Assembly (NCBI GenBank): GCA_964035575.1
Contig: OZ037910.1
Coordinates: 186,001 to 250,000 of the forward strand
Source: Rhynchopus sp. YZ270_cl-10
Taxonomy: Eukaryota; Euglenozoa; Diplonemea; Diplonemida; Diplonemidae
Direction: 5' to 3'
DNA length: 64,000 bases
A model generated the notes under the pieces. It was not told the origin of the DNA. It did no database searches and saw nothing but the letters and a program-made list of their open reading frames with translations. How positions within the stretch are numbered: position 1 is the first letter of the stretch; each line of letters starts with the position of its first letter. The translations under genes and the position numbers were made by a program. Of the stretch, positions 1-53,275 are shown piece after piece.

Positions 1-2109
1 AACCCGTCGAACATTCATCCCTTTCTCCCAATAGAGAGCTGACGAGTTCGGATAAATGGTGAAGTTGTTCACAGATTTCACATCCGTAATCTGTCTCGCT
101 CGTGGCCATGCGAATGCTGCAAAGAGACGGATGTCATCATCGGACACTTCGCACCCTTTGGAAACTGCACTGCATGCATCGCGAACAAGCTGGTGAAACT
201 CTTCCTGGCTCAGCAAAGCCTCCTCTTGTGTGCTGAGGGAAATGTTTTTGCCTTCTTTTGCATCACTGAGGTGGGTCTGCGGGTCGATCCCCGTGCATAC
301 AGGAAGCACCCTCACTCGCACACCCATGTCCTTTTGGAGCTCTCGCAGGTACTTCAGAGCAAACCGTGCGCCATCTGGACATTGCTCATCCAGCATCTGA
401 CCTTCATCAACGACGATGATGAGCACAAGGTCGGGTTGTTCCTGGGCTAGCTGCTTGAGTATCTCCCTCACTTTTGATTCTATTGTGGCCAAGTGCACGC
501 GCCGAAGCTGTTCCTTGGTCAGGGTGGGGAGTTCGAACTCCTTCTGCACGTCCGAGTTTTCAGTGTCAAGTTCATCTGGGTTCTTTAGCTTCCTGTATGC
601 ATTGAGCCAAGCAAACAAGCGGGAGCACAACAGCACTCTTATGGATTTCCGTGTTGGGTTCGCTGCGAGGAAGGATCTTTCGTCACAACTCATAGGTGAT
701 CTGCAGTTGAAGCCAATGTACGCCACCACCGGATTGTACTTCTTCTCCTTGTCCTGCTCTTGAAAACCTTGCCGTGCTGTCAATGTGCCAAACGTCTTCC
801 CCACTCCAGATCCACACGCCAACACCAGTGCTCTTGTCTCTTGCATCTTCATGCCATCCGTGATTCCCTCCACAGTGGAGACCAACACCTTGTTGAATCC
901 TTCACGCCCAAAACGCTTTTCTTGCCCGTTGGTACTTGGTAAGCATAGCGGAGTGTCCATCTTCGCGAGAACGTCGAGATCAAATGGCTGCTGTTGAGCT
1001 GCCGCAGCTGAAACGTACCCGAATATCCGGATAACAATCTCCAACTGATTATTGACGCTCTGTAAGTGTGTGGAAAATGAATGTACAAAACTACAAACAA
1101 CAAAATAACAACAAAGTTGCACCACACTGCGCATCACCACTGCCGACTTTGCAACCCCAACACACATGTTGCGAATGGGTCATGCTAGACAGATGAAACT
1201 AAAAGTGGGTGTCAAAAGCAAGTAGACCACTCGCCGTGCCTCCAAAAGGTCCGAGGTTCCCTGCGCCACACAGACAGTACAACCACATGTAATGACTCAA
1301 CTCAAAGGTTGAGTGAATAGAAACAGCAAAGAGTTCTGCACGACAAATATGTTGCGAACGGGTCATGCTGGACAGATAAAATAAACATCTGTGTGGAAAG
1401 CAAATGTTACATACCCCCAGCAGCTTCTCGAACTCGGCGATCTCGGCGTTGATAATTCTCTTGCCTTGCTTGCTGGTGCGGTTGTCGTTAGTGAGGTCCA
1501 CGTAGACGTCGAGGTGCTTCAGTTGTTCGACAGTCACCTTTCCATCCTTGCATTCCTTTAACGCTAGGATCTGCTCCTGCAGCTTGTCCTCCTTTGACTT
1601 CAGTTTAGTCACTCTCTCAAGAGCTTTGACCATGGGAGGCAAGTGTCCGCCCTCAGCAGGCATACTTGTGGGAGGGGAGGCCTTTACATAAGGCCTTTTG
1701 TGACCTTTTTTGCCCCTTCCTCTTCCTCTCTGCCTTCGTTTGGGTTTTTTGTTCTCTCCTTCATTGTTCGCTGTTGTTTTAGGGGAGCTTGTTTCCGTTC
1801 CTCCAAGTTTTGCAGGCATCAAGTCAAGGAGAAAGGGTACGTTGCTTGTGTGAGGGGAGGGGGATGTGAGATAGGGAGAGAGGTGTGTATCCTGTTGTGA
1901 TGTAGAGTAGGTTAGTTGGTGAGAGGAGGTTTCGGGGCTGATAAAATAAAGAGGAGGAGTCAGTAATGTACTGTGAGCCTGAAACACAACGCATGAAAAA
2001 CATAATATGATGGGAAACAGAACAGAAAATACAAAATACAGAACGAATCGAGGGAAGTACCACATCAAAAGAATCAACCTTCCTTTTTCTTCAAACATAC
2101 GCAAGACAT
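1..2109 (-). CDS. Crinkler/RHS-like NTPase-nuclease gene 1 (3' part outside window), module type A
   Basis: Inferred exons on the minus strand are 2101-2109 (Met-Ser-Cys end of a small first exon), 1415-1978 and 1-1059. Introns 1979-2100 and 1060-1414 are GT-AG with GTATGT donors, and all junctions are phase 0. The middle exon (188 codons) has a Ser/Thr/Pro-rich start, a basic stretch rich in KRR and RGRGRGKK, then coiled-coil module A (VKALERV... to ...FEKLLG). The last exon shows a P-loop (GSGVGKT) and Walker B (LVLIIVVDEGQ) and runs off the window before the nuclease domain. The segment after the acceptor (SVNNQLEIVIRIFGYV) differs from gene 2 and resembles gene 5. An alternative start is the Met at 1819 (MPAKLGG). 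Family assignment rests on the NTPase motifs and on intact siblings. Cellular target unknown; in the family these are effector or conflict proteins. Confidence 0.75.
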
Positions 2110-2669: not shown

Positions 2670-2908
2670 CTAAATTAGTTTACAGATTCTCCGGAAGAAC
2701 GGCACGTGTCTCGTCATCATTGCTCTGGTCGGGGGTAGAGGTGTCTTCCACATGTGGTTGGGAATATGCGAGCCCCGAGACAGCAATGCAGGCCACACAG
2801 GACGCGATGACAACAGACTTCCGGGTGGTAATGCCTTGACCTCTTCCTTTCCAGTACTACTGTACAGAAGTGTCGTCATTGGCTCCCACGTTGTCGTCAG
2901 AGGACTCA
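2670..2908 (-). other. Shared family tail lying beyond the stop of gene 2
   Basis: The sequence matches the last ~75 codons of genes 3, 4, 6, 7 and 8 (ending FFRRICKLI in their frame). Here it follows the gene 2 stop, so gene 2 is shorter than its siblings. On the same strand another frame carries a hydrophobic run (VVIASCVACIAVSGLAYS). Which frame, if any, is translated cannot be told from DNA alone. Confidence 0.6.
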
Positions 2909-5902
2909 TCACACTGAGTCACCTTCGGTCTTGGAGTTGGTGATGAGAAGGTAATTCTGGTCTTTCCATGGAGCCACGCTGCATTTCTTGAGGTGCTCGA
3001 CATTCTCCACAGTCTCGGGCTTTTTCAGAATAGCCTGTAGTGATTCGTGGACGCGCTTCGCCTTGTTGCGCATGTCGAGGATCGTACCCCATTTTTCGGT
3101 TGGGTCAGTCTTGAACTTCGCGTCTGCGAAGCGGATCTGTAGTGTATGCTTCGTCTTCTTCTTCTCCAACGTCACCAAAATGAAGTCCAACGCTGCCGAT
3201 TCACCGCAATGCACCAGAATCGTGTCGCCATGTTCGCACAGCTTCAAAAGCGCGCCTCCAAACTCAACGCTGAGTGCTGTGCGTTCTTCGAGGCTTTGTG
3301 TGTTGAAGGGGTGAGACTGGTCCTGTGAGTTATCCAGTTTCTGCACCTGCACTACCTCCCCCACAGAAGGTGGAAACCATGTCCGGAGTGTCTGCGTAGT
3401 GCTCTCTGCCGGCAAGTATCTGTTGTCTACCCTATTGTGATAGAAGAACCCCAGGAAAAGAGCCAAAGTCTGGAAGGCGATAGCCTCGAAGCTGCGATCA
3501 TCCGGTGAAAGAGCTTGCAGGTTCACCGTGTCAGGAAAACAACGTAAGAAAAGTGGAATGTCCAACCATTCGAGGATGCTGTGAAGCAGGCTGTAGTCAA
3601 TCAACGGACGTTGCATCTCCTCCTGATCCACAAGACGAACCATGTTGCGAGGCACTGCGCCTCTCTCGAGCGTCTTGCCATCTGCAGCTGCCTGAAGAAC
3701 CTGTCGAACATCCATCCCTTTCTCCCAAAATAGAGTTGTCGACTCCGGATAAATGGTGAAGTTCTTATCCCTTGGCATAGTCATAACCATTCTCGCTCGT
3801 GGCCATGCGAATGCTGCAAAGAGACGGATGTCATCATCGGACACTTTGCGCCCTTTGGTCTTTTTTTTGGAAACTACCTTCTTCCATGCATTGGAAACAA
3901 GCTGGTGAAACTCTTCCTGGCTCAGCAAAGCCTCCTCTTGTGTGCTGAGGGAAATGTTTTTGCCTTCTTTTGCATCACTGAGGTGGGTCTGCGGGTCGAT
4001 CCCCGTGCATACAGGAAGCACCCTCACTCGAACACCCATGTCCTTTTGGAGCTCTCGCAGGTACTTCAGAGCAAACCGTGCGCCATCTGGACATTGCTCA
4101 TCCAGCTTCTGACCTTCATCAACGACGATGATGAGCACAAGGGTGCGTTGTTCCTTGGCTAGCTGCTCGAGTATCTCCCTCACTTTTGATTCTATTGTGG
4201 CCAAGTGCACGCGCCGAAGCTGTTCCTCTGTCAGGGTGGGGAGTTCGAACTCCTTCTGCACGTCCGAGTTTTCAGTGTCAAGTTCATCTGGGTTCTTTAG
4301 CTGCTTGTATGCATTGAGCCAAGCAAACAAGCGGGAGCACAACAGTACTCTTATGGATTTCGGTGTTGGGTTCGCTCTGAGGAATTCTTCCTCTTCCCAA
4401 CTCATACGTGATCTGCAGTTGAAGCCAATGTACGCCACCACCGGATTGTACTTCTTCTCCGTGTCCTGCTCTTGAAAACCTTGCCGTGCTGTCAATGTGC
4501 CAAATGTCTTCCCCACTCCAGATCCACACGCCAACACCAGTGCTCTTGTCTCTTGCATCGTCATGCCATCCGTGATTCCCTCCACAGTGGAGACCAACAC
4601 CTTGTTGAATCCTTCACGCCCAAAACGCTTTTCTTGCTTGTAGGTACTTGGTATGCATAGCGGAGTGTCCATCTTCGCGAGAACGTCGAGATCAAATGGC
4701 TGCTGTTGAGCTGCCGCAGCTGAAACGTTCGCAAGCACCTTGCGTGCACACAACAGCGCTTCTTCAACTCTCTGTGAGAGTGTGTGTAAAATATGTGTAC
4801 AAAACTACAAACAACAAAATAACAATAAAGTTGCACCACACTGCGCATCACCACTGCCGACTTTGCAACCCCAACACACATGTTGCGAATGGGTCATGCT
4901 AGACAGATGAAATAAAAATGGGTGTCAAAGCAAGAAGACCACTCGCCGTGCCTCCAAAAGGTCCGAGGTTCCCTACGCCACACAGACAGTACAACATGTA
5001 ATGACTCAACTCAAAGGTTGAGTGAATAGAAACTACAAAGAGTTCTACACGACACACATGTTGCGAATGGGTCGTGCTGGACAGATAACATAAACATGAG
5101 TGTGGAAAGCAAATATTACATACCCCTAGCAGCTTCTCGAACCCGGCGATCTCGGCGTTGATAATTCTCTTGCCTTGCTTGCTGGTGCGGTTGTCGTTAG
5201 TGAGGTCCACGTAGACGTCGAGGTGCTTCAGTTGTTCGACAGTCACCTTTCCATCCTTGCATTCCTTTAACGCTAGGATCTGCTTCTGCAGCTTGTCCTC
5301 CTTTGACTTCAGGTTAGTCACTCTCTCAAGAGCTTTGACCATGGGAGGCAAGTGTCCGCCCTCAGCAGGCATACTTGTGGGAGGGGAGGCCTTTACATAA
5401 GGCCTTTTGTGACCTTTGCCCCTTCCTCTTCCTCTCTGCCTTCGTTTGGGTTTTTCGTTCTCTCCTTCATTGTTTGCTGTTGTTTTAGGGGAGCTTGTTT
5501 CCGTTCCTCCAAGTTTTGCAGGCATCAAGTCAAGGAGAAAGGGTACGTTGCTTGTGTGAGGGGAGGGGGATGTGAGATAGGGAGAGAGGTGTGTATCCTG
5601 TTGTGATGTAGAGTAGGTTAGTTGGTGAGAGGAGGTTTCGGGGCTGATAAAATAAAGAGGAGGAGTCAGTAATGTACTGTGAGCCTGAAACACAACGCAT
5701 GAAAAACATAATATGATGGGAAACAGAACAGAAAATACAAAATACAGAACGAATCGAGGGAAGTACCACATCGAAAGAATCAACCTTCCTTTTTCTTCAA
5801 ACATACGCAAGACATCTGTGGTGCACCCTTTGCGCCAACTGGGGTCACTCTGCGCTTTTTCTCTTTTCTTCCGAGGCTCCTGGGTCGTTGTTGGTGCTGC
5901 AT
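2909..5902 (-). CDS. Crinkler/RHS-like NTPase-nuclease gene 2, module type A
   Basis: Exons: 5807-5902 (32 codons, basic, containing GRKEKKRR), 5124-5684 (187 codons, module A) and 2909-4771 (620 codons plus stop). Introns 5685-5806 and 4772-5123 are GT-AG; every junction is phase 0, giving ~839 residues. In the large exon (residue 1 = Arg at 4771) the P-loop GSGVGKT is at 83-89, Walker B LVLIIVVDEGQ at 211-221 (Asp218-Glu219), a sensor-like VCTGID at 254-259 and WPRAR at 323-327. The nuclease-like domain follows, with Asp529 on a strand (DFILVTL) and Asp550-Ala-Lys552 in FADAKFK, the pattern of a PD-(D/E)xK fold. The family's known role is ATP-driven action on nucleic acid, often in the host nucleus. 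The protein stops earlier than its siblings, so the 3' end looks altered (about one break). The Met at 5525 is an alternative start. Confidence 0.8.
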
Positions 5903-6690: not shown

Positions 6691-9401
6691 CTAAATTAGT
6701 TTACAGATTCTCCGGAAGAACGGCACGTGTGTCGTCATCATTGCTCTGGTCGGGGGTAGAGGTGTCTTCCACATGTGGTTGGGAATATGCGAGCCCCGAG
6801 ACAGCAATGCAGGCCACACAGGACGCGATGACAACAGACTTGAGGGTGGTAATGCCTTGACCTCAGGCACCTCTTCCTTTCCAGTACTACTGTACAGAAG
6901 TGTCGTCATTGGCTCCCACGTTGTCGTCAGAGGACTCATCACACAGTCACCTTCGGTCTTGAAGTTGGTGATGAGAAGGAAATTCTGGTCTTTCCATGGA
7001 GCCACGCTGCATTTCTTGAGGTGCTCGACATTCTCCACAGTCTCAGGATTTTTCAGAATAGCCTGTAGTGATTCGTGGACGCGCTTCGCCTTGTTGCGCA
7101 TGTCGAGGATCGTACCCCATTTTTCGGTCGGGTCAGTCTTGAACTTCGCGTCTGCGAAGCGGATCTGTAGTGTATGCTTCGTCTTCTTCTTCTCCAACGT
7201 CACCAAAATGAAGTCCATCGCTGCTGACTCATCGCAATGCACCAGAATCGTGTCGCCATGATCGCACAGCTTCAAAAGCGCGCCTCCAAACTCAACGCTG
7301 AGTGCTGTGCGTTCTTCGTGGCTTTGTGTGTTGAAGGGGTGAGACTGGTCCTGTGAGTTATCCAGTTTCTGCACCTGCACTACCTTGCACACAGAAGGTG
7401 GAAACCATGTCCGGAGTGTCTGCGTAGTGCTCTCTGCCGGCAAGTATCTGTTGTCTACCCTATTGTGATAGAAGAACCCCAGGAAAAGAGCCAAAGTCTG
7501 GAAGGCGATAGCCTCGAAGCTGCGATCATCCGGTGAAAGAGCTTGCAGGTTCACCGTGTCAGGAAAACAACGGAAGAAATATGGAATGTTCAACCTGTCG
7601 ATGATGCTGTGAAGCAGGCTGTAGTCAATCAACGGAAGTTGCATCTCCTCCTCCTGCACAAGACGAACCATGTTGCGAGGCACTGCGCCTCTCTCGAGCG
7701 TCTTGCCATCTGCAGCTGCCTGAAGAACCCGCCGAACATCCATCCCTTTCTCCCAAAAGAGAGTTGTCGAGTTCGGATAAATGGTGAAGTTCTTTGTACC
7801 TTGCATCTCCTTAACCATTCTCGCTCGTGGCCATGCGAATGCTGCAAAGAGACGGATGTCATCATCGGACACTTTGCGCCCTTTGGTCATTTCTTCGGAA
7901 ACTACCTTGTTCCATGCATTGGAAACAAGCTGGTGAAACTCTTCCTGGCTCAGCAAAGCCTCCTCTTGTGTGCTGAGGGAAATGTTTTTGCCTTCTTTTG
8001 CATCACTGAGGTGGGTCTGCGGGTCGATCCCCGTGCATACAGGAAGCACCCTCACTCGAACACCCATGTCCTTTTGGAGCTCTCGCAGGTACTTCAGAGC
8101 AAACCGTGCGCCATCTGGACATTTCTCATCCAGCTTCTGACCTTCATCAACGACGATGATGAGCACAAGGGTGCGTTGTTCCTGGGCTAGCTGCTCGAGT
8201 ATCTCCCTCACTTTTGATTCTATTGTGTCCAAGTGCACGCGCCGAAGCTGTTCCTCGGTCAGGGTGGGGAGTTCTAACTCCTTCTGCACGTCCGAGTTTT
8301 CAGTGTCAAGTTCATCTGGGTTCTTTAGCTGCTTGTATGCATTGAGCCAAGCAAACAAGCGGGAGCACAACAGCACTCTTATGGATTTCCGTGTTGGGTT
8401 CGCTCTGAGATAGGATCTTTCGTCACAACTCATAAGTGATCTGCAGTTGAAGCCAATGTACGCCACTACCGGATTGTACTTCTTCTTCATGCCCTGCTCT
8501 TGAAAACCTTGCCGTGCTGTCAATGTGCCAAACGTCTTCCCCACTCCAGATCCACACGCCAACACCAGTGCTCTTGTCTCTTGCATCTTCATGCCATCCG
8601 TGATTCCCTCCGCAGTGGAGACCAACACCTTGTTGAATCCTTCACGCCCAAAACGCTTTTCTTGCTTGTAGGTACTTGGTATGCATAGCGGAGTGTCCAT
8701 CATCGCGAGAACGTCGAGATCAAATGGCTGCTGTTGAGCTGCCGCAGCTGAAACGTTCGCAAGCACCTTGCGTGCATACAACAGCCTTAAATCAACTTGC
8801 TGTGAGTGTGTGTGTAAAATATGTGTACAAAACTACAAACAACAAAATAACAACAAAGTTGCACCACACTGCGCATCACCACTGCCGACTTTGCAACCCC
8901 AACACACATGTTGCGAATGGGTCATGTAAGACAGATGAAATAAAAATGGGTGTCAAAGCAAGAAGACCACTACCCGTGTCTCCAAAAGGTCCGAGGTTCC
9001 CTGCGCCACACAGACAGTACAACCACATGTAATGACTCAGCTCAAAGGTTGAGTGAATAGAAACTACAAAGAGTTCTGCACGACACACATGTTGCGAACG
9101 GGTCATGCTAGAAAAATAAAACAAGAATGGGTGTCAAAAGCAAGTGTCATACCTCCTTCTCCTTCTCGAGCTCGGCGATCTTGTCGGCGATCTTCTGCTT
9201 GCCATCAGGGGTGTCACGGTCGCTGTCCGTAAAACCCCACAGACGAAGCTGGTTCAACTTGCTGACGTCATAGCCTGGTGCACTTGCACGGAATCCCTCC
9301 AATGCATCGATCTGGTCCTTCAGCGTCTTCTGCTCGCCCTCCAGGTAAGTTACTCTCCTACCAGCAGTGCCTGCAGGAGGCAAGTCATCACCATCAGGCA
9401 T
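6691..9401 (-). CDS. Crinkler/RHS-like NTPase-nuclease gene 3, module type B
   Basis: Exons 9153-9401 (83 codons, Met-Pro-Asp-Gly-Asp-Asp start, module B) and 6691-8799 (702 codons plus stop); the 353 nt GT-AG intron 8800-9152 has a GTATGA donor. Module B reads VTYLEGEQKTLKDQIDAL, a ~30-residue linker, then IADKIAELEKEKE: two helices around a loop. The second exon has the intact P-loop (ACGSGVGKT), Walker B with Asp-Glu and the nuclease Asp ... FADAKFK, and ends in the tail shared by most copies. The family leader is gone: similarity stops near 9461 and repeat DNA follows, so the small basic first exon of the other genes is absent and the Met at 9401 is the likely start. The 5' half is near-identical to gene 8. 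Confidence 0.78.
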
Positions 9402-9461: not shown

Positions 9462-10200
9462 GTTGTTTGCATGGGGCTTATATACAGGGCTGCCAAAAAA
9501 TTTGCACGTACTACAGTACTTACCAAGAGAGGGGGGTGGGCTTTCTGCTTGAAGAAAGTTGCCGATTTTTTTTGTGTTGTAAAGTTTTCTTCCAGATTGT
9601 GCAAGTAACGGGGGTTTTGATGTTTTCTGAAAAAACCTGGAGGGCGCACCAGGCCGCGTGCCGGAGGTGCTATGAGGGGGTTTCTTAGAAAACTTGTTCT
9701 CTACACTAACATCACACTGGCACCGTACTCATTTTAACAAAAACCAAGAACTTGCCCAATTCTGCAAATTGACCCCACCACAGAACGGACGGATTCCGGA
9801 AATGCAAATGCCGGTGTTTTCGCGCATTTTCATGTTTCAGCATGTGGGAGAGAAAATCTGGGTTGTGGGATTTACCTTGGCCCTTTACCTTACACTCATT
9901 TTGACCAAAACCAAGAACTTGCCATTTCTGCAAATTGACCCCACCACAGTGCGGACAGATTCCGGAAATGCCAATCGCAGTATGTTTTGGGGCTGAAAAA
10001 TTTTCAGGGGAAAATTTTTTTGAGCAGCATTTTTTGGCCGAAAATGGGCCCCACGTATAAGCAACCGGGCTCATATTTTCAAAAAATTTAAGTGGTCAAA
10101 AAATTGTCCAATTTTCGAGATTGACCCCACCACTGCACGGGTGAATCTCAAAAATGCAAATAAGGACGTTTTTGGCACAAAATAAATCTGCCAAAAAATT
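9462..10200. repeat. Dispersed AT-rich repeat with GACCCCACCAC cores replacing the gene 3 leader
   Basis: Starts where the family leader ends (GTAGGTTAGTTG). It is an inverted, diverged copy of 25250-25985, with CAGGGCTGCCAAAAAATTTG near 9484. It includes three GACCCCACCAC units (near 9770, 9940 and 10120), each followed by a CGGAYKGATTCCGGAAATGC-like or related sequence. No open reading frame worth calling. Confidence 0.6.
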
Positions 10201-10203
10201 TGT

Positions 10204-10446
10204 GTCCCGGATTGGATTTTCATAGATGGAACGCCCATATGGGCACCAAAAAATATGGGCAATATGGGCGGAAAAAATGTGCCCATATGCCCATATGGGC
10301 ATATGGGCGTAAATTTGGGCGAATATGGGCGCATATGGGCGGATATGGGCACATTTTCAAATATGGGCTACGGGCCCATATTTTTTAAGGTGGCCCATAT
10401 TTCGGATATGGGCGCCCATATTTCAATATGGGCGCCCAATCTTAAT
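10204..10446. repeat. GCCCATATGGGC palindrome array
   Basis: About fifteen ATGGGC/GCCCAT units in both orientations form repeated 12-base palindromes (GCCCATATGGGC) and wider ones (ATGGGCGCCCAT). A second array of the same unit in opposite order lies at 13561-13800, and both share the flanking string ATAGATGGAACGCCCATATG or its complement. No coding potential; translated frames are low complexity. Confidence 0.75.
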
Positions 10447-12680: not shown

Positions 12681-12710
12681 GGCGCCCATCAGAGCTCGCG
12701 CTAAAATCCA

Positions 12711-13800: not shown

Positions 13801-13852
13801 ATGGATTTTGGACCCCCCGGACCCCATATTTAGAAATAGCCCTGGTGCAAGC

Positions 13853-41647: not shown

Positions 41648-41685
41648 ATCACTCCGCCAGCTCTGTTGCTTAGTGGTTCGGTCTT

Positions 41686-43680
41686 CTAAATTAGTTTACA
41701 GATTCTCCGGAAGAACGGCACGTGTCTCGTCATCATTGCTCTGGTCGGGGGTAGAGGTGTCTTCCACATGTGGTTGGGAATATGCGAGCCCCGAGACAGC
41801 AATGCAGGCCACACAGGACGCGATGACAACAGAGTTGAGGGTGGTAATGCCTTGACCTCAGGCACCTCTTCCTTTCCAGTACTACTGTACAGAAGTGTCG
41901 TCATTGGCTCCCACGTTGTCGTCTCAGGACTCATCACACAGTCACCTTCGGTCTTGGAGTTGGTGATGAGAAGGAATTCGGAGGGTGTGAAGTTCGGTAT
42001 GGTGTACTCCTCTTCGAAATACTTCTGTAGTGATGTGTGGAGTTTTCTTGCCTCGTCAATCATCTCGTCGGCCTTGATCTTGTTTTCCTTGTCGGATTTG
42101 AACTTCGCGTCTGCGTAACGTATGTACAACGTCTTCTTCTCCTCCTTCTTCTCCAATGTCACCAAAATGAAGTCCATCGCTACCGATTCACCGCAATGCA
42201 CCAGAATCGTGTCGCCGTGTACCTTCACCTTATCAAACAACTCCTTGAACTGGACGCTGAGTGCTGTGCGGTCATTGTGATCTTGTGCCGCAAAGGGGTG
42301 AGCGGAGGAGCTTGAATCATCCAGCTTCTGCAGGCCCACAACGCGCCCCACAGAAGGTGGAAACCAATTCCGTAGTGGCTGTGTACTTTGGTCCCGCGGG
42401 AAGTAGTTGTCGTTTTCCCTGCCGTGATAGAAGAAGACCAGGAAAAGAGCCAAAGTCCTGAAGGCGACAGCCTCGAAGTCGTGCCAATCCTGTGTATGCA
42501 GCAGCTGCACCAGGCCAAGAACAGAAATGAAGAATGATGGAAGGTTCAACCTTCTGCTGATGCTCTGAAGCACACTGTAGTCAATCAACGAATATTGCTT
42601 CCCGTTCTGCTGTACAATACGAACCATGTTGCGAGGCACTGCGCCTCTCTCGAGCGTCTTGCCATCTGCAGCTGCCTGAAGAACCCGTCGAACATCCATC
42701 CCTTTCTCCCAAAGGAGAGTTGTCGACTCCGGATAAATGGTGAAGTTCTTATCCCTTGGCATAGTCATAACCATTCTCGCTCGTGGCCATGCGAATGCTG
42801 CAAAGAGACGGATGGTATCGTCAGAAACTCGTTCTCCTTCGGTTGTGGCAACTGCATTCCATGCATCGCGAACAAGGTCAGGAAACTCTTCCTGGCTCAG
42901 CAAAGCCTCCTCTTGTGTGCTGAGGGAAATGTTTTTGCCTTCTTTTGCATCACTGAGGTGGGTCTGCGGGTCGATCCCCGTGCATACAGGAAGCACCCTC
43001 ACTCGAACACCCATGTCCTTTTGGAGCTCTCGCAGGTACTTCAGAGCAAACCGTGCGCCATCTGGACATTGCTCATCCAGCATCTGACCTTCATCAACGA
43101 CGATGATGAGCACAAGGGTGCGTTGTTCCTTGGCTAGCTGCTCGAGTATCTCCCTCACTTTTGATTCTATTGTGGCCAAGTGCACGCGCCGAAGCTGTTC
43201 CTTGGTCAGGGTGGGGAGTTCGAACTGCTTCTGCACGTCCGAGTTTTCAGTGTCAAGTTCATCTCGGTTCTGCAGCTGCTTGTATGCATTGAGCCAAGCA
43301 AACAAGCGGGAGCACAACAGCACTCTTATGGATTTCGGTGTTGGGTTCGCTCTGAGGAAGGATCTTTCGTCACAACTCATAGGTGAGCTGCAGTTGAAGC
43401 CAATGTACGCCACCACCGGATTGTACTTCTTCTCCGTGTCCTGCTCTTGAAAACCTTGCCGTGCTGTCAATGTGCCAAATGTCTTCCCCACTCCAGATCC
43501 ACACGCCAACACCAGTGCTCTTGTCTCTTGCATCGTCATGCCATCCGTGATTCCCTCCACAGTGGAGACCAACACCTTGTTGAATCCTTCACGCCCAAAA
43601 CGCTTTTCTTGCTTCTGGGTACTTGGTATGCATAGCGGAGTGTCCATCTCCGCGAGAACGTCGAGATCAAATGGCTGATG
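41686..43680 (-). pseudogene. Crinkler/RHS-like gene 6, catalytic part, 5' end of exon replaced
   Basis: Open catalytic frame with P-loop ACGSGVGKT, Walker B LVLIIVVDEGQ and nuclease Asp ... RYADAKFKSD. The middle and C-terminal regions are strongly diverged from the siblings (for example FFISVLGLVQLLHTQDWHDF), suggesting diversification of the effector half. Similarity to the family ends at about 43680, inside the start of the exon; the usual acceptor is not there and foreign DNA follows. The matching front half lies at 46069-46655, 2.4 kb away. Probably broken as a gene (about one break); a new upstream exon is not excluded. Confidence 0.65.
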
Positions 43681-44336
43681 TTGGTGTATTACAGGGGGAC
43701 GGAGACAAATTAGAATTTGAAAACGAAAAACGAAAGACAAAAACTCCGTATTTGGGATTTTTGTAAGACCGCTGCGAAACAGATTTTCGCTGAGTTACCC
43801 CCTACTGGGTTGATGATATCTCAAAAAAAATCCCCAAAACCCCTTACCCGGGTCGATGGGTCGGTGGTTAGGCTGGGGCTTGACTGGTATTTCAACAACA
43901 ACAAATAAAAAAAAAAAAAAAAATCGTCACCAACGCAAACGTGCATACTGTATACCGCCGCCGAGCTTCCATCACCAACGCTAAAACAATAAAAGATAAC
44001 AATAAAAACGCTATTGTCTGCTGCTTCTGCACCTGCGCCAGCTCATTCATAACGCTCTGTTTGCGGGGGAAGTGAATGAAACAAAATAACAACAAAGTTG
44101 CCCAACACACATGCTGCGAATGGTTCATGCTAGACAGATGAAACTAAAATTTGTACCGTTTTTTTCCGGGTGTCGGTGGGCTGTAAAGGGAAATTGGGCA
44201 AAAATGCCGTATTTTGCCGTTTTTTTGCACTTTTGACTTGCTTTTCGGTCCCCACACCCCCAAATTTTCCCACTTATGTGCTGTTTCCCTACAAATCAAT
44301 ATAAAATCAAAAACTTTTGTTTGTGCGTAAAGTGTG
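43681..44336. other. Foreign DNA and an intron remnant between the halves of gene 6
   Basis: 43681-44070 matches nothing else in the window. 44080-44150 is a piece of the family intron (AACAACAAAGTTGC, CATGCTAGACAGATGAAACT). The remainder is unrecognised and leads into the TA-flanked element. Confidence 0.55.
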
Positions 44337-44338
44337 TA

Positions 44339-45029
44339 CCTACCCCCCCCCGTGCATAAGTCTGCGTATAAGTCCGATTTTTGGGGGGGCTGAGGGCCTC
44401 CGGACTTATACACGAGGTTTCGGACTTATGCACGGGTATCGGACTTATACACCGGTTTTGTGCACCCAGGTACCCACACCCATGCACATGACCTCAGTGT
44501 GAGTGACCCACATGTGACACCGCCCGCAAAATTTACCCTGTCTTCGTGCACCTTCGGTACAACGCCGCAAGCAGGCCAAACAGCATTGGACTCAGAGGAA
44601 TGCCTGCTGTGCAGGTATCAAACATGAGAACCAACTCCCAACAAGGGACACCTTTTGGCTGTTGAGACTGTTTGGGGTGCAAAGTTTTCCACAATGTTGC
44701 AGTAACAGGTTCACACCATTGAGAATTGTGAGGATGATGTTTTGACACGAGAAGCGTGAAGATGATCCCTGGTGAATACACCACCAATAAAAATAAAGTT
44801 ACGCTCGCTTCGCTCGCGGAAAAATACCTCAATTTTTTCCTCCCGCTCGCTTCGCGAGCGGGAAAACGCCTCAAAAAAAATTCTCCCCACTACCAGTACA
44901 CAAAACCGGTGTATAAGTCGGCCTGTGCATAAGTCCGATCCTGAGCCCAAATCTGCCCGGACTTATACACGGGTCATCGGACTTATGCACGGGTCATGGG
45001 GGTCGGACTTATGCACGGGGGGGGGTAGG
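44339..45029. mobile_element. TA-flanked inverted-repeat element (Tc1/mariner-like)
   Basis: CCTACCCCCCCCCGTGCATA and its complement form perfect ~24 bp ends flanked by TA (44337-44338, 45030-45031). Inside each end are several GGACTTATRCACG repeats, a usual arrangement for transposase binding. The 691 bp interior has a segment shared with 29870-30060 and the hairpin CCCGCTCGCTTCGCGAGCGG at 44842-44862. No transposase core; assigned by TA duplication only. Confidence 0.72.
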
Positions 45030-45031
45030 TA

Positions 45032-45862
45032 ATAAATATTCTGTGGTGATATTTTTATTACTGCAATACGCTCCCACTGACTACCTGGCAGTGAAGAGGA
45101 AACCTCTTTGAGGCCAAAAAGATGCCTTGGTGCGTGATCACAAATGCTGCACCTAATGCGAGAATGGAGGACACATGTACCGTTTCCCCCATTTGACTTG
45201 CAAGAAATGGCGTAAACCCGCTGATTTTAAACACCGGCAGTGCACTTTCGGAATCCGTCCGGCCAGTGGTGGGGTCAATTTTACGAAATGGACAAGTTCT
45301 CGTTTTTGGTCAATTTCCGCACAGTACACAAACCACCTGATTGCCAAAGCCAAAAATAGTATGAAAAAGTGTTATTATTGGGGTAAATGCCAGGTGGTCT
45401 GAAGAGTGATCTGACCATATTCTCCAGGTCTAACAAATACCCAAATAATTCATTGGAGAAGGAATTTTGTACTTTTGACCACCACAGACTACTGTGTTTT
45501 TACCGGTTTTCTATGTGCTAGTGTTACAATTTTCCAAGGTAAAAATGACATGTGTACGTACGTAGGTGAGGAAGAAGGCTGAGTGGGCGTGTAGTGCCAC
45601 AAAATATCTCTATCGTCACACCCTAGTTGAGTATCCCGTTTGACCCACTCAGAGGCTGGACCCCACCGTGTGAGCAAGCAAAACAGGTCACCCCCTGGTA
45701 AGCCCCGCTCAAAAACACCTGAGTTGTACTAGTGGTGTGACTGGGTGTAATTGGGCGTAATTGGGCAAAGTTGGGCTGAACTTGGGTATAATTGACCCCA
45801 AGTGGGTCCAGATGGGCTGTGTTGGGTCCGGTTGGATGGGTGAAAAAACGGTACATAAAAGC
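45032..45862. other. No gene; one dispersed motif and a degenerate TTGGGC repeat
   Basis: A GTGGTGGGGTCAAT unit with AATCCGTCCGGCC lies near 45250-45330. 45735-45835 is a degenerate TTGGGYNNAATTGGGC minisatellite. No coding region is supported. From ~45863 the family intron resumes (AAGACCACTCGCCGTGCCTC). Confidence 0.5.
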
Positions 45863-46068
45863 GGGTCTAAAAAGCAAGAAGACCACTCGCCGTGCCTCCA
45901 AAAGGTCCGAGGTTCCCTACGCCACACAGACAGTACAACCACATGTAATGACTCAACTCAAAGGTTGAGTGAATAGAAATTACAAAGAGTTCTACACGAC
46001 ACACATGTTGCGAACGGGTCATGCTAGAAAAATAAAACAAGAATGGGTGCCAAAAGCAAGTGTCATAC

Positions 46069-46655
46069 CTCCTTCTCCTTCTCGAGCTCGGCGATCTTGT
46101 CGGCGATCTTCTGCTTGCCATCAGGGGTGTCACGGTCACTGTCCGTAAAACCCCACAGACGAAGCTGGTTCAACTTGCTGACGTCATAGCCTGGTGCACT
46201 TGCACGGAATCCCTCCAATGCATCGATCTGTTCCTTCAGCGTCTTCTGCTCGCCCTCCAGGTAAGTTACTCTCCTACCAGCAGTGCCTGCAGGAGGCAAG
46301 TCATCACCATCAGGCATACTTGGGGTGTGAGAGGAGGAGAGGTGTGTATCCTGTTGTGATGTAGAGTAGGTTAGTTGGTGAGAGGAGGTTTCGGGGCTGA
46401 TAAAATAAAGAGGAGGAGTCAGTAATGTACTGTGAGCCTGAAACACAACGCATGAAAAACATAATATGATGGGAAACAGAACAGAAAATACAAAATACAG
46501 AACGAATCGAGGGAAGTACCACATCGAAAGAATCAACCTTCCTTTTTCTTCAAACATACGCAAGACATCTGTGGTGCACCCTTTGCGCCAACTGGGGTCA
46601 CTCTGCGCTTTTTCTCTTTTCTTCCGAGGCTCCTGAGTCGTTGTTGGTGCTGCAT
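46069..46655 (-). pseudogene. Front half of gene 6: basic exon and module B
   Basis: Exons 46560-46655 (32 codons) and 46069-46437 (123 codons: Ser/Thr-rich leader, MPDGDDLPPAGTAGRR and module B ending ELEKEKE), both phase 0 with GTATGT/GTATGA donors. The leader frame runs unbroken into module B here, unlike the copies at genes 3 and 8 that lost it. The expected catalytic exon is displaced beyond two blocks of foreign DNA, so this is either a broken gene or one with a very long intron. Confidence 0.6.
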
Positions 46656-47098
46656 CTTTAACTGCTGCTGCCGACCTCGGTGGTAATGGTGGCGGCCTTT
46701 ACGGAACAAAACAAATCGACATAAAACACAACACAACACACAACACACAACACACAGGCAGAGAAAGAGAGAAAAGGGGGGACAACATTTAGACAGAACA
46801 GCGACATCCGCGTTCACTTTCTTTTCGCTTTTGCCATCTCCTCTCTTCACCTCTCAATAGTATTTTTGAATTGATTTCACTTTTGTTTCGTGACAACTGC
46901 TTTCTGTCCCCTTCTTTCTGCACTCGCCCCATATGCGGACACACCACCTGCGGCAATACAACACACGCAAACAATCATATCTTTCAACAAACAAACAAAC
47001 AATCACTATTTTGTTTCCTTTACTTTCTTTCCCGATATTTCCCGAGCACAGATTGAAGGCCCATTGCACTTTAGAGGAACCCTTCACTTTCTCTTTGC
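46656..47098 (-). promoter_or_regulatory. Conserved leader/promoter block of gene 6
   Basis: Near-identical to the blocks of genes 2, 4 and 5, continuing upstream into the orphan NTPase fragment as at gene 2. Confidence 0.5.
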
Positions 47099-47355
47099 AG
47101 GGAGGGCACAAACTTCAGTACCCCAAATGCCTCGTCTTCATCTAGACTGCCGAGATGGATATGTGCAGTCCTCTTTTTGCTCCCTTCCGTTTCTTCCAGT
47201 TCCTCATCGAATAAGTATGTCAACGAAGTCCAGACAAAACGGATCTCTGGGAAATACGTTTTGCCAGACCCGGGGATGCCGACCATAGTGATCACGTGCC
47301 ACCGATTTGATGTTCGCGACGTGATCATTACGTGACATTCATTTGTTTGGCACAT
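47071..47355 (-). pseudogene. Orphan P-loop NTPase fragment, second copy
   Basis: Same 94-codon sequence as 6311-6595, with VGIPGSGKT. Flanks are the same on both sides, so it belongs to the repeated unit. Confidence 0.5.
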
Positions 47356-47450
47356 TGCTATTCACAAGGTAAGTTGATTACTTCACTCACTACGGAAACA
47401 TGGCAGCCACACATCACTCCGCCAGCTCTGTTGCTTAGTGGTGTGGTCTT

Positions 47451-49830
47451 CTAAATTAGTTTACAGATTCTCCGGAAGAACGGCACGTGTCTCGTCATCA
47501 TTGCTCTGGTCGGGGGTAGAGGTGTCTTCCACATGTGGTTGGGAATATGCGAGCCCCGAGACAGCAATGCAGGCCACACAGGACGCGATGACAACAGACT
47601 TGAGGGTGGTAATGCCTTGACCTCAGGCACCTCTTCCTTTCCAGTACTACTGTACAGAAGTGTCGTCATTGGCGCCCACGTTGTCGTCTCAGGACTCATC
47701 AGACAGTCACCTTCGGTCTTGGAGTTGGTGATGAGAAGGAAATTCTGGTCTTTCCATGGAGCCACGCTGCATTTCTTGAGGTGCTCGACATTCTCCACAG
47801 TCTCGGGCTTTTTCAGAATAGCCTGTAGTGATTCGTGGACACGCTTCGCCTTGTTGCGCATGTCTAGGATCTGGGTCGCGGTACCCCATTTTTCGGTTGG
47901 GTCAGTCTTGAACTTCGCGTCTGCGAAGCGGATCTGTAGTGTATGCTTCGTCTTCTTCTTCTCCAACGTCACCAAAATGAAGTCCAGCGGTGCTGATCCA
48001 CAGCAATGCACCAGAATCGTGTCGCCGCGAGTGTCGAGCTTTTTAAGCGACTTTTCAAACTCGTCGCTGAGTGCTGTGCGTTCATCGGAGTTTTCACTGT
48101 TGAAGGGATGACTCTTGCCTGTGTCACCCAGTTTCTGCCGCATAACCTTCCGTACAGAAAGTGGAAACCAGTTCAGTAGTCGCTGTGTCTTTGCAGACGT
48201 CGGCAGGTAGTTGTCGTTTTTCCTGCCGTGATAGAAGAAGCTCAAGAAAAGAGCCAAAGTCTGGAAGGCGATACCCTCGAAGTTGTGCCAATCCGGGTGA
48301 AGACCTGACAGCTTCACCATGCCGGGAAGAGAAACGAACTCAGGTGGAATCTCCAACTCCTTCGCGATGCTCTCCAGCACACCGAAGTCAATCAACGGAC
48401 GTTGCTTCCACTCCTGATCCACAAGACGGACCATGTTTACAGGCACTTTGCCACTCTCGAGATTCTTGCCATCTGCAGCTGCCTGAAGAACCTGTCGAAC
48501 ATCCATCCCTTTCTCCCAAAGGAGAGTTGACGAGTTCGGATAAATGGTGAAGTTGTTCACAGATTTCACATCCGTAATCTGTCTCGCTCGTGGCCATGCG
48601 AATGCTGCAAAGAGACGGATGTCATCATCGGACACTTCGCACCCTTTGGAAACTGCACTGCATGCATCGCGAACAAGCTGGTGAAACTCTTCCTGGCTCA
48701 GCAAAGCCTCCTCTTGTGTGCTGAGGGAAATGTTTTTGCCTTCTTTTGCATCACTGAGGTGGGTCTGCGGGTCGATCCCCGTGCATACAGGAAGCACCCT
48801 CACTCGCACACCCATGTCCTTTTGGAGCTCTCGCAGGTACCTCAGAGCAAACCGTGCGCCATCTGGACATTGCTCATCCAGCTTCTGACCTTCATCAACG
48901 ACGATGATGAGCACAAGGGTGCGTTGTTCCTTGGCTAGCTGCTCGAGTATCTCCCTCACTTTTGATTCTATTGTGGCCAAGTGCACGCGCCGAAGCTGTT
49001 CCTTGGTCAGGGTGGGGAGTTCGAACTGCTTCTGCACGTCCGAGTTTTCAGTGTCAAGTTCATCTGGGTTCTGCAGCTGCTTGTATGCATTGAGCCAAGC
49101 AAACAAGCGGGAGCACAACAGCACTCTTATGGATTTCGGTGTTGGTTTCGCTCTGAGGAAGGATCTTTCGTCACAACTCATAAGTGATCTGCAGTTGAAG
49201 CCAATGTACGCCACCACCGGATTGTACTTCTTCTCCTTGTCCTGCTCTTGAAAACCTTGCCGTGCTGTCAATGTGCCAAACGTCTTCCCCACTCCAGATC
49301 CACACGCCAACACCAGTGCTCTTGTGTAATGCATCGTCATGCCATCCTCGATTCCCTCCGCAGTGGAGACCAACACCTTGTTGAATCCTTCACGCCCAAT
49401 ACGCTTGTTTACCTTGTTGGTACTTGGTATGCATAGCGGGGTGTCCATCATCGCGAGAACGTCGAGATCAAATGGCTGATGTTGAGCTGCCGCAGCTGAA
49501 ACGTTCGCAAGCACCTTGCGTGCACACAACAGCCCTTCTTCAACTCTCTGTGAGTGTGTGTGTAAAATATGTGTACAAAACTGATACAAAGCAAGTGTTA
49601 CATACCTTCAGCAGCTCTTTGAGATCGGCGAGGTCTCGAAACCCTTCGATAAATGCTTCGTTCTTGCCGTTGTAGAAGATGCGCCCGAGCACTTTCTGGA
49701 AGCCGGGTGTCTCATTGTCGTATTCGCGGCGAACCTCCTCCTGAATGTCGTCAATCTCCTTCTGCAGCTTGTCCACCTCTGACTCCAGTTTAGTCACTTC
49801 CTGCCTAGCTTCGACCTCTTCGCGAACTAG
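47451..49830 (-). CDS. Crinkler/RHS-like NTPase-nuclease gene 7, module C, 5' end lost
   Basis: Exons 49606-49830 (75 codons, module C) and 47451-49547 (698 plus stop) are joined by an unusually short 58 nt GT-AG intron (GTATGT ... CTCACAG), phase 0. The P-loop (ACGSGVGKT), Walker B and nuclease Asp ... FADAKFK are intact; the region between NTPase and nuclease is divergent (PPEFVSLPGMVKLSGLHPDW). The end carries the shared tail. Upstream of 49830 the family intron continues to ~49968 and then gives way to unrelated DNA; only a broken leader remnant (50206-50315) is present, so no start exon can be given. Possibly unexpressed, or expressed from a new start. Confidence 0.7.
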
Positions 49831-49968
49831 CTGTAAGTGTGTGGAAAATGAATGTACAAAACTACAAACAACAAAATAACAACAAAGTTGCACCACACTG
49901 CGCATCACCACTGCCGACTTTGCAACCCCAACACACATGCTGCGAATGGGTCATGCTAGACAGATGAA

Positions 49969-50460
49969 AGTGAAGTTATTAATGCAGGCACCTCCGACTG
50001 ACCCACGTACGATGCCAGCCATCCGGATGAAAGCACAAGTACCCTGCGGCCAACAACAGAAGATGTAAAAAGGAAACCTAATGACTGGCCCGTACCGTAA
50101 GAGAACGAGGGCGGTTCACAACCGCTCGACAGCCGGCGGCCCACCTTCCGTTGAAGAGTTGTGAGCTTACAGGTACTGCAGTTCGCTGCACCCACCCACC
50201 CTGCTTGTGTGAGGGGAGGGGGATGTGAGATAGGAAGAGAGGTGTGTATCCTGTTGTGATGTAGAGTAGGTTAGTTGGTGAGAGGAGGTTTCGGGGCTGA
50301 TAAAATAAAGAGGAGTGGTTCGTGTGTGCGGTACATTGTCGTGAATAGACGAAGACGCAGCATAGCTCATGCCGACCATAGTGATCACGTGCCACCGATT
50401 TGATGTTCGCGACGTGATCATTACGTGACATTCATTTGTTTGGCACATTGCTATTCACAA
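49969..50460. other. Recombined 5' region of gene 7
   Basis: 49969-50205 is unrelated to other copies. 50206-50315 is a leader fragment (Ser/Thr-rich exon sequence, broken). 50316-50367 is unrelated. 50368-50460 is the start of the orphan NTPase fragment, cut before its P-loop lysine. The mosaic shows repeated breakage at the 5' ends of these genes. Confidence 0.6.
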
Positions 50461-50543
50461 GGTAAGTTGATTACTTCACTCACTACGGAAACATGGCAGC
50501 CACACATCACTCCGCCAGCTCTGTTGCTTAGTGGTGTGGTCTT

Positions 50544-53275
50544 CTAAATTAGTTTACAGATTCTCCGGAAGAACGGCACGTGTCTCGTCATCATTGATCT
50601 GGTCGGGGGTAGAGGTGTCTTCCACATGTGGTTGGGAATATGCGAGCCCCGAGACAGCAATGCAGGCCACACAGGACGCGATGCCAACAGACTTGAGGGT
50701 GGTAATGCCTTGACCTCAGGCACCTCTTCCTTTCCAGTACTACTGTAGAACAGAAGTGTCGTCATTGGCTCCCACGTTGTCGTCTCAGGACTCATCACAC
50801 AGTCACCCTTGGTATTGGAGTTGGTGATGAGAAGGAAATTCTGGTCTTTCCATGGAGCCACGCTGCAGTTCTTGAGACGCTCGACTTCCTCGAGATTCTT
50901 GGGGTTTTTGAGATTTTTGAGAATAGCCTGTAGTGATTCGTGGACCTTCTCCGCTTCCTTTACGATCTGCGTCTTCTGGGTCGTGGTACCCCATTCTTTG
51001 GTTGGGTCAGTCTTGAACTTCGCGTCTGCGAAGCGGATCTGTAGTGTATGCTTCGTCTTCTTCTTGTCCAACGTCACCAAAATGAAGTCCAACGCTGCTG
51101 ATCCACCGCAATGCAGCAGAATCGTGTCGCCATGTTCGCACAGCTTCAAAAGCGCGTCTTGAAACCCAACGCTGAGTGCTGTGCGTTCTTCGTGGCTTTG
51201 TGTGTTGAAGGGGTGAGACTGGGACTTTGGTTTATCCAGTTTCTGCACCTGCACTACCTCCCCCACAGAAGGTGGAAACCATGTCCGGAGTGTCTGCGTA
51301 GTGCTCTCTGCCGGCAAGTATCTGTTGTCTACCCTATTGTGATAGAAGAACCCCAGGAAAAGAGCCAAAGTCTGGAAGGCGATAGCCTCGAAGCTGCGAT
51401 GATCCGGTGAAAGAGCTTGCAGGTTCACCGTGTCAGGAAAACAACGGAAGAAAAGTGGAATGTCCAACCATTCGATGATGCTGTGAAGCAGGCTGTAGTC
51501 AATCAACGGAAGTTGCATCTCCTCCTCGTGCACAAGACGAACCATGTTGCGAGGCACTGCGCCTCTCTCGAGCGTCTTGCCATCTGCAGCTGCCTGAAGA
51601 ACCTGTCGAACATCCATCCCTTTCTCCCAAAATAGAGTTGTCGACTCCGGATAAATGGTGAAGTTCTTATCACTTGGCATAGTCATAACCATTCTCGCTC
51701 GTGGCCATGCGAATGCTGCAAAGAGACGGATGTCATCATCGGACACTTTGCGCCCTTTGGTCTTTTTTCTGGAAACTACCTTGTTCCATGCATTGGAAAC
51801 AAGCTGGTGAAACTCTTCCTGGCTCAGCAAAGCCTCCTCTTGTGTGCTGAGGGAAATGTTTTTGCCTTCTTTTGCATCACTGAGGTGGGTCTGCGGGTCG
51901 ATCCCCGTGCATACAGGAAGCACCCTCACTCGCACACCCATGTCCTTTTGGAGCTCTCGCAGGTACCTCAGAGCAAACCGTGCGCCATCTGGACATTGAT
52001 CATCCAGCTTCTGACCTTCATCAACGACGATGATGAGCACAAGGGTGCGTTGTTCCTTGGCTAGCTGCTCGAGTATCTCCCTCACTTTTGATTCTATTGT
52101 GGCCAAGTGCACGCGCCGAAGCTGTTCCTCGGTCAGGGTGGGGAGTTCGAACTCCTTCTGCACGTCCGAGTTTTCAGTGTCAAGTTCATCTGGGTTCTGC
52201 AGCTGCTTGTATGCATTGAGCCAAGCAAACAAGCGGGAGCACAACAGCACTCTTATGGATTTCGGTGTTGGTTTCGCTCTGAGGAATTCTTCCTCTTCCC
52301 AACTCATACGTGATCTGCAGTTGAAGCCAATGTACGCCACCACCGGATTGTACTTCTTCTTCTTGTCCTGCTCTTGAAAACCTTGCCGTGCTGTCAATGT
52401 GCCAAACGTCTTCCCCACTCCAGATCCACACGCCAACACCAGTGCTCTTGTCTCTTGCATCTTCATGCCATCCGTGATTCCCTCCGCAGTGGAGACCAAC
52501 ACCTTGTTGAATCCTTCACGCCCAAAACGCTTTTCTTGCTTGTAGGTACTTGGTATGCATAGCGGAGTGTCCATCATCGCGAGAACGTCGAGATCAAATG
52601 GCTGCTGTTGAGCTGCCGCAGCTGAAACGTTCGCAAGCACCTTGCGTGCATACAACAGCCTTAAATCAACTTGCTGTGAGTGTGTGTGTAAAATATGTGT
52701 ACAAAACTACAAACAACAAAATAACAACAAAGTTGCACCACACTGCGCATCACCACTGCCGACTTTGCAACCCCAACACACATGTTGCGAATGGGTCATG
52801 TAAGACAGATGAAATAAAAATGGGTGTCAAAGCAAGAAGACCACTACCCGTGTCTCCAAAAGGTCCGAGGTTCCCTGCGCCACACAGACAGTACAACCAC
52901 ATGTAATGACTCAGCTCAAAGGTTGAGTGAATAGAAACTACAAAGAGTTCTGCACGACACACATGTTGCGAACGGGTCATGCTAGAAAAATAAAACAAGA
53001 ATGGGTGTCAAAAGCAAGTGTCATACCTCCTTCTCCTTCTCGAGCTCGGCGATCTTGTCGGCGATCTTCTGCTTGCCATCAGGGGTGTCACGGTCGCTGT
53101 CCGTAAAACCCCACAGACGAAGCTGGTTCAACTTGCTGACGTCATAGCCTGGTGCACTTGCACGGAATCCCTCCAATGCATCGATCTGGTCCTTCAGCGT
53201 CTTCTGCTCGCCCTCCAGGTAAGTTACTCTCCTACCAGCAGTGCCTGCAGGAGGCAAGTCATCACCATCAGGCAT
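50544..53275 (-). CDS. Crinkler/RHS-like NTPase-nuclease gene 8, module type B
   Basis: Exons 53027-53275 (83 codons, module B from MPDGDD) and 50544-52673 (709 plus stop), with the 353 nt intron 52674-53026. Everything upstream of plus-strand 52367 equals gene 3, whereas the rest of the catalytic exon differs from gene 3 at many sites and resembles gene 2 in places (for example the EEEEFLRA segment). The gene is thus a chimera with its switch point inside the exon. Motifs: ACGSGVGKT, LVLIIVVDEGQKLDDQ, WPRAR, nuclease Asp ... FADAKFK, shared tail. The leader is replaced by repeat DNA as in gene 3, so promoter and start are uncertain; Met at 53275 chosen. Confidence 0.78.

Follow-up and report, generated by a model that had tools for sequence, protein, structure and literature searches.

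A diplonemid gene array belongs to a genome-wide modular family in which coiled-coil headers meet exchangeable enzyme domains at a conserved predicted intron

Introduction

How might one gene family place the same N-terminal header in front of different enzymes and still keep the reading frame? The question is raised by a 64,000-nucleotide stretch of the diplonemid Rhynchopus sp. YZ270_cl-10 (GenBank assembly GCA_964035575.1, contig OZ037910.1, here C78, bases 186001-250000), which we call the window. It carries eight related genes, numbered G1 to G8 from left to right, in which short coiled-coil exons precede a long catalytic exon. A sequence-only reading of the window had described an eight-member NTPase-nuclease array built from interchangeable phase-0 exons, likened it to Crinkler and RHS proteins, and proposed that recombination in conserved introns generates new module combinations. 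The modularity of Crinkler and RHS proteins is known; how header and toxin are joined outside the oomycetes is, in our judgement, unsettled.

Here, we follow these claims through the whole assembly (152.4 Mb, 126 contigs). The sequence comparisons strongly support a real modular gene family, and the window array probably belongs to a set of modular conflict proteins that is spread through the genome and works like the Crinkler/RHS class.

Results

Each window gene has one long catalytic exon (~660 to 710 codons) with short exons ahead of it, and all eight catalytic exons lie on the minus strand, G1 being cut by the window edge and G2 frame-broken (Table 1). The coiled-coil exons open with VT-x-L-E/K, as had been read from the sequence, and fall into the three types proposed: A (VTNLKSKEDK...), B (LVREEVEA...VTKLESE...), and C (VTYLEGEQKT...). 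They appear alone or three in series. The header is a basic leader fused to A in G1 and G2, C in G3, G6, and G8, B in G7, and a separate basic exon followed by B in G5. In the three-module gene G4, however, A comes first, C (carrying a B-type head) second, and B last, rather than the A-B-C read earlier, and a duplicated A tail lies in an intron. The small basic exon, previously taken as common to the genes, is a separate 111-nt exon in G5 only but is fused to module A in G1 and G2. Modules measure 249 nt in the first-exon form of two types, 225 nt in the third, and 234 nt in the internal chimaeric exon. The duplicated A tail may be compared with Diplonema, for which PMC10161547 describes repeats of the end of the first exon within the first intron.

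Predicted exon junctions are in phase 0 at all 10 sites in the window that could be fully modelled (the one in G2 by hand), with donors GTATG or GTAGG and acceptors ending in CACTYACAG or a near variant. The corresponding introns range from 58 to 443 nt, and only 2 of the 10 are divisible by three in length, so that it is the exons, not the introns, that preserve the frame. This count excludes G6, in which only the donor is clear, as well as the donor of the duplicated A tail in the G4 intron and an unused acceptor-like site in G5, at both of which another frame is longer. A candidate 24-nt mini-exon in G5 was dropped for its noncanonical donor. Leaders and introns are near-identical among many of the window genes. 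In both phase and near-identity the sequence-only reading thus holds, and the pattern is more than chance, since this donor, intron, and acceptor, in this phase, are found elsewhere in the genome as well. We infer that the predicted intron is spliced.

The genome-wide distribution of the intron was examined with two DNA queries. The G3 intron gave at least 50 matches on 15 contigs (40 of 182 candidates scored), and a second intron gave at least 53 (40 of 193 scored). Outside the C78 array, the conserved intron occurs at at least 32 places (≥85% identity over the matched part). Around these outside copies we fetched 20 stretches of 10 kb (L-numbers), among which L022 and L023 come from a single tandem array and L024 lies next to L025. 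A related header exon precedes the intron in 17 of the 20 stretches: 12 have an A-, B-, or C-related exon by tblastn, and 5 more have a header-like phase-0 open reading frame (ORF), each with a relative among the other headers (E below 1e-4). In the rows from outside the window, 17 of 18 donor motifs and 21 of 22 acceptors have their long frame in phase 0, the exceptions being a donor motif at L024 5693, inside an enzyme exon, and an acceptor at L039 3503; because the copies are homologous, and some come from one tandem array, these rows are not independent. A transposing intron (introner) family was considered as the source of the copies and tentatively set aside, since the related header upstream in 17 of the 20 stretches speaks against it (40 of 182 candidates scored).

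Behind this intron lie different enzyme-like exons. Exons like the NTPase-nuclease of the window were found only in L030, L037, and L038. Others carry P-loop motifs (GAMGKGKT in L025 and L034, GLMGMGKT in L031 and L039, GTPGVGKT in L032), a CxxC-N-CH HNH signature (L021, L026, L027, L028, L029, and L036), or a second HNH-like signature (L024, L033, and L037). L034 also holds a predicted nuclease-kinase (Pkinase, 4e-6; DUF6826, 0.0011; both below the Pfam cutoff), for which 4 of 12 hits are EukProt transcripts, one of them with the prefix Rhum, which we read as the diplonemid Rhynchopus humris. Pfam backs the kinase and, weakly, HNH_2 in L029 and L037, and most other enzyme labels are motif based. 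The enzyme exon of L035 is unclassified, and those of L022, L023, and L040 are short or broken.

The C-terminal tail is nearly invariant even in members with another enzyme; G5 has a basic tail instead. In most catalytic exons, this tail, common to members with unrelated enzyme domains, is the C-terminal 50 residues, as at window 6694-6840. On contig C13 (558277-629890), at least 12 ORFs of ~730 to 750 codons match a window protein only over this tail and probably represent another enzyme class. On C19 (1622944-1644353), at least five head-to-tail units of ~4.64 kb were seen, and in those fetched a remnant of a viral ATPase is accompanied by a header exon, the intron, and an enzyme exon that is short. 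In L026, L028, and L034, leaders that by eye resemble C2H2 zinc fingers replace the basic leader. A 19-base end of the euglenozoan spliced leader gave two matches and no control match, in contexts that look like retrocopies.

Direct comparison of gene pairs indicates that headers and enzymes have been exchanged. L024 and L025b, ~9.6 kb apart on contig C2, have identical header residues (80/80) and identical 357-nt introns, whereas their enzymes are unrelated, an HNH-like protein in one and an NTPase in the other; the NTPases of L025a and L025b are 96% alike. G3 and an HNH-like gene in L037 have headers and introns that are each 85% alike, followed again by unrelated enzymes. The ~860 nt upstream of G4 are 95.6% identical to those upstream of this L037 gene, which lies on another contig. 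The opposite case is seen in G1 and G3, whose enzymes are 85% identical (348 residues) and whose headers differ (35%). Recombination in introns had been proposed as the source of new combinations. Such combinations do appear, even between unrelated enzyme-like domains, but the breakpoints that can be placed lie 38 to 60 nt inside the next exon: agreement continues past the acceptor for 38 bases between the two genes of L034, 54 between L024 and L025b, and 60 between the two genes of L037 (for L037a, a long downstream ORF, behind a further short intron seen by eye, replaced the short exon in the pairwise comparisons above). Beyond the breakpoint, divergence reaches chance level in two pairs and rises more gradually in L034; G3 and L037b differ from the first bases past the acceptor. 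The three breakpoints lie in the hinge helix that follows the intron, often LLxAR and with ...TLAMEAQ at its end. The shared cassette is thus intron plus hinge helix, and exchange is not limited to the intron.

The catalytic exon of the window genes has Walker A, Walker B, and an initiator-like fold, which place its first part among P-loop NTPases of the AAA+/ORC-STAND type; CED-4, Avs3, BrxC, RdrA, and ORC are among its fold neighbours. A putative restriction endonuclease (REase)-like part follows, with conserved DFILV and R-x-ADA(K/Q). Structure matches cover model residues 10 to 273, and those listed hardly reach the nuclease half. Foldseek returned no match at E ≤ 0.001, and a search of solved structures by sequence returned none. 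No RHS family appeared among Pfam matches at E ≤ 1 for 17 members or in NCBIfam for six proteins. Pfam profiles for Crinkler or its header (Ubl, LxLFLAK) matched neither the catalytic exon, nor one copy each of A, B, and C, nor the L032 and L037 enzyme exons. Two protein searches aimed at homologues outside this genome gave 16 and 20 proteins, and a phage-record search with one protein gave no match. The family nevertheless agrees with a wide-sense Crinkler-RHS (CR) class in that one header is followed by interchangeable C-terminal NTPase-REase, REase-kinase, or HNH parts, as judged from the NTPase types, the kinase-like protein with its weak DUF6826 match, and the HNH motif sets, with the REase parts called by motif and the Pfam matches below cutoff. 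The Crinkler/RHS label of the earlier reading suits the domain repertoire but has no matching curated profile behind it.

A protein search of the whole genome placed 16 catalytic exons on C78 between 184,963 and 293,233 (108 kb), a hand count in which a split copy at 287,630/288,673 is taken as one. The eight catalytic exons of the earlier reading stand; the array as such, however, extends outside the window and is broken up by ~23 kb of repeats (9.5 to 32.9 kb). Five of the 16 are copies of G4 to G8, score the same as these, and lie 32,112 bp further on, in a repeated block of ~28.6 kb without a mismatch in the stretches compared. Four of five such stretches (7,417 bp and three of ~3,300 bp) show no difference over their whole length; the fifth is identical over its first 1,901 bases and unrelated beyond, which sets the right end of the block. 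The block is either a very recent duplication or an assembly artefact.

G3 and G8 show 0.0% divergence in 300-base blocks over ~4 kb upstream, including exon C and the intron (one block, 0.3%), and 2 to 16% within the catalytic exon. The best partner of each gene shifts from block to block along this exon, and for nine sequences, of which seven are from the window, 33 of the 36 pairs had a longest shared run above that of every one of 300 column shuffles. Nonsynonymous divergence (dN) exceeded synonymous divergence (dS) in 35 of 36 pairs (Nei-Gojobori, median ratio 1.29), with a pooled ratio of nonsynonymous to synonymous proportions (pN/pS) of 1.23 (bootstrap, 1.07 to 1.44); the cut G1 was left out, only the open part of G2 was used, and some end codons of G5 and L038 were removed. 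By block, pN/pS is 0.48 at Walker A, 0.57 at the nuclease motif, and above 2 in two blocks. In header exons, nonsynonymous exceeded synonymous codon changes in 11 of 12 pairs, with one tie. The catalytic exons are mosaics, and segmental exchange within them is at least as prominent as exchange near the intron.

Two simpler accounts of the array can be weighed on these data. Plain tandem duplication with concerted evolution, the coiled-coil exons having no exchangeable role, would suit the recent block copy at the 32,112-bp offset and the pervasive gene conversion. We think it improbable, as it leaves unexplained both the excess of dN over dS and the occurrence of the same header and intron before unrelated enzymes on other contigs. 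Still less credible is that the ORFs are relics of decaying repeats whose apparent exons are not expressed. The frame of G2 is indeed broken near the 3' end of its catalytic exon, G7 has no recognisable first exon, G6 is interrupted by ~2.4 kb of other sequence ahead of its catalytic exon, and the enzyme exon of the C19 copies is 35 residues long. Yet in all but one of the eight window genes the catalytic exon is still open over ~660 to 710 codons (G1 read beyond the window), pairwise nucleotide identity of the catalytic exons is 79.6 to 96.1%, and the Walker A and nuclease-motif blocks are constrained.

Several family members adjoin genes of viral type. The header is immediately preceded, in the same orientation, by a partial or complete A32-type packaging ATPase in 7 of the 20 stretches (L021, L022, L023, L026 [47 residues only], L028, L033, and L035; Pox_A32 for L021, 40.3 bits against a cutoff of 22.8), and sequence that follows such an ATPase is also present in L027, L029, and L034. 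Beside L021 are an rve integrase (44 bits against 32.6), an ORF matching DUF5679 and, below the cutoff, a pX-like ORF. The leaders of all eight window genes are 83 to 92% like those of the ATPase-linked L021 and L022 over 58 to 122 columns. Genome-wide, Pox_A32 has 49 matches, and 12 pairs of intron and A32 match lie within 3 kb of each other against 0.06 expected (at least 32 intron places, the C78 array and shorter secondary matches left out).

These neighbours could mean that the genes are cargo, or former cargo, of Polinton-like viruses (PLVs), that the family arose or travels beside the packaging ATPase, and that the window array is a host-resident expansion. We regard this as possible but rather doubtful. 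Nine of the 12 pairs come from the one C19 tandem array and the others from C13, C51, and C90, so that only four separate sites are represented; where the ATPase is downstream, as in four pairs, it belongs to the next unit of the C19 array. For most of the 49 A32 matches, not one of the at least 32 listed intron copies lies within 3 kb, and neither an A32 nor a DUF5679-type match occurs in the window. A search for terminal repeats around L021 and six other stretches gave nothing convincing. Inverted arms (282 bp, 86.5%) enclosing the L028 gene were rejected as element termini, being a dispersed repeat with a 98.9% identical copy in L038. A PLV paper (PMC10120064) regards endogenous viral genes as intron-free, and PMC12220804 already describes an HNH endonuclease gene beside a PLV packaging ATPase gene that may serve packaging. 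The adjacency may reflect cargo, a hitchhiking flank, or an insertion hot spot. More speculatively still, intron-containing CR-like toxins might spread with PLVs, the intron-hinge cassette swapping their enzymes, and the host arrays might be captured, diversified toxin banks, a scenario that we offer only tentatively.

The dispersed ~276-bp repeat occurs at L028 507-782 and 6766-7032 and at L038 1212-1485; the two L028 copies are inverted around the header-HNH gene, and one splits the ATPase remnant. A minisatellite of more than 8 kb, open in more than one frame, adjoins the Polinton-like remnant in L043 (1167-10000). A scan of IMG/VR with the A32-like protein found no relative.

The same data bear on where the proteins would act. 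They may be intracellular defence receptors and not secreted effectors, with a coiled-coil sensor, a STAND/AAA+ NTPase, and a nuclease, akin to antiviral NTPases of the Avs/RdrA type or to NLRs, and with viruses such as Polinton-like elements driving their diversification. The fold neighbours named above, the excess of dN over dS, and the abundance of viral elements (the 49 Pox_A32 matches) are in keeping with this. We consider it unlikely.

Coordinates are collected in Table 1. No Pfam match was found in nine ORFs of the repeat-rich spacer and one from the gene region, and Rfam and tRNA scans of the window were negative. The spacer contains minisatellites (ACTGT × 52.6, 18588-18850; 9 bp × 66, 18872-19471; 261 bp × 3, 21450-22233; a 28-bp array, 23903-24114) and GCCCATATxxxATATGGGC-like arrays (10293-10452 and 13562-13750). 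At 37518-37805 on the minus strand, a fragment of the nuclease domain is fused to sequence that elsewhere lies upstream of the leader.

Table 1. Features of the window and of two ATPase- or integrase-bearing stretches (window positions unless an L-number is given)
Feature	Position	Strand	Remark
G1 catalytic exon	1..1059	-	Incomplete at window edge, still open past it
G1 conserved intron (355 nt)	1060..1414	-	GTATGTAAC...CACTTACAG
G1 basic leader fused to coiled-coil module A (405 nt)	1415..1819	-	
G2 catalytic exon	2670..4771	-	Frame broken near 3' end; open part ends 2912
G2 basic leader plus module A (402 nt)	5124..5525	-	Donor at 5123
G3 catalytic exon	6691..8799	-	NTPase plus nuclease-like
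G3 coiled-coil module C (249 nt)	9153..9401	-	First exon
Repeat-rich spacer	9466..32900	none	Splits the array
Repeated block	24472..53104	none	Repeated 32,112 bp further along the contig; second copy from 56584, running past the window
G4 catalytic exon	32956..35079	-	
G4 module B (225 nt)	35242..35466	-	
G4 intron	35467..35909	-	Contains duplicated module A tail and its donor
G4 module C (234 nt)	35910..36143	-	B-type head
G4 module A (249 nt)	36498..36746	-	Own ATG
G4 leader and upstream region	36747..37600	-	
G5 catalytic exon	37908..39938	-	Alternative basic C-terminal tail
G5 module B (225 nt)	40319..40543	-	
G5 small basic exon (111 nt)	40717..40827	-	
G6 catalytic exon	41686..43682	-	Start uncertain
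G6 module C (249 nt)	46069..46317	-	~2.4 kb from catalytic exon
G7 catalytic exon	47451..49547	-	
G7 module B (225 nt)	49606..49830	-	Then 58-nt intron; no clear first exon upstream
G8 catalytic exon	50544..52673	-	
G8 module C (249 nt)	53027..53275	-	First exon; 53275 is its ATG
A32-like ATPase ORF	L021 5801-6895	-	Adjoins header-HNH gene
DUF5679 ORF	L021 9104-9769	-	Adjoins header-HNH gene
Polinton-type rve integrase ORF	L043 669-1268	+	Adjoins header-HNH gene

Discussion

We favour the reading in which the window array belongs to a modular family of the Crinkler/RHS kind. In this view each gene has a header, made up of a leader and between one and three exons for coiled-coil helical hairpins. 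A conserved phase-0 intron (~350 nt in most cases) comes next, followed by a short hinge helix and an exchangeable enzyme domain, which in the window array is predicted to be an initiator-type (ORC/Cdc6/STAND-like) P-loop NTPase fused to an REase-like domain. Many members resemble one another in leader, intron, and hinge, so that ectopic recombination within these parts could join a header to another enzyme with the frame kept. Gene conversion in the catalytic exons, with dN at or above dS, may then diversify the copies. The coiled-coil helices may serve targeting or assembly, NTP binding might gate the predicted DNA nuclease, and the proteins are presumably directed against mobile elements, viruses, or other cells.

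Several observations weigh against this reading. The AlphaFold model of the catalytic exon is weak (mean pLDDT, 61.6), its nuclease is assigned by motif pattern only, as are most of the other enzyme labels, and no RHS, Crinkler, or other curated profile matches it above cutoff. The pooled dN/dS is just slightly above 1 and gene conversion makes the pairs nonindependent; conserved blocks also upset the column-shuffling test. Among the outside copies, the L037a intron is just 63 to 68% like the others, L022 and L023 form a single tandem array, L024 and L025 lie side by side, and the enzyme exon is short or broken in L022, L023, and L040. Several members have no header or are broken.

What this family offers is a visible joint: one conserved phase-0 intron plus a short hinge, with one pair of genes that differ only in the enzyme behind it. 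This makes the mechanism of exchange testable, and the adjoining viral ATPase genes make a viral or transposon route testable as well. The family suggests how conflict proteins can be rapidly reassembled. Our literature search found no paper joining "crinkler" with "polinton-like virus," although at least one paper, on a giant virus in Phytophthora (PMC8204020), reportedly contains both "crinkler" and "polinton."

Among known systems, the CR proteins are the closest in design. As outlined in the review PMC5289972, they combine a common N-terminal header with variable C-terminal NTPase plus REase-like, REase plus kinase, or HNH parts, header and toxin being brought together by recombination, and some CR headers are unrelated alpha-helical domains; the word intron is absent from that review. 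In contrast to Crinklers, the header here is made of coiled-coil exons, with no Ubl/LxLFLAK or Pfam Crinkler match, and the joint is a conserved predicted intron plus hinge helix, not an HVLVxxP motif.

Trypanosoma is likewise a euglenozoan. Its RHS genes form a large family, with mosaic genes from gene conversion and unequal crossing-over (PMC7563717). They differ from the present family, which has no RHSP match and shows predicted cis-introns, separate coiled-coil exons, and swaps between unrelated enzymes. Bacterial polymorphic toxins differ in turn, this family being eukaryotic and having a predicted intron at the junction. For the repeat-bounded genes of Diplonema papillatum, the source text available mentions no link to a toxin-like family. 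Finally, the HNH endonuclease gene of PLVs also adjoins the packaging ATPase gene, and the available part of PMC12220804 places it upstream of that gene and mentions no coiled-coil header. The genes described here, in contrast, lie downstream of the ATPase, carry a header and a predicted intron, and comprise several enzyme classes.

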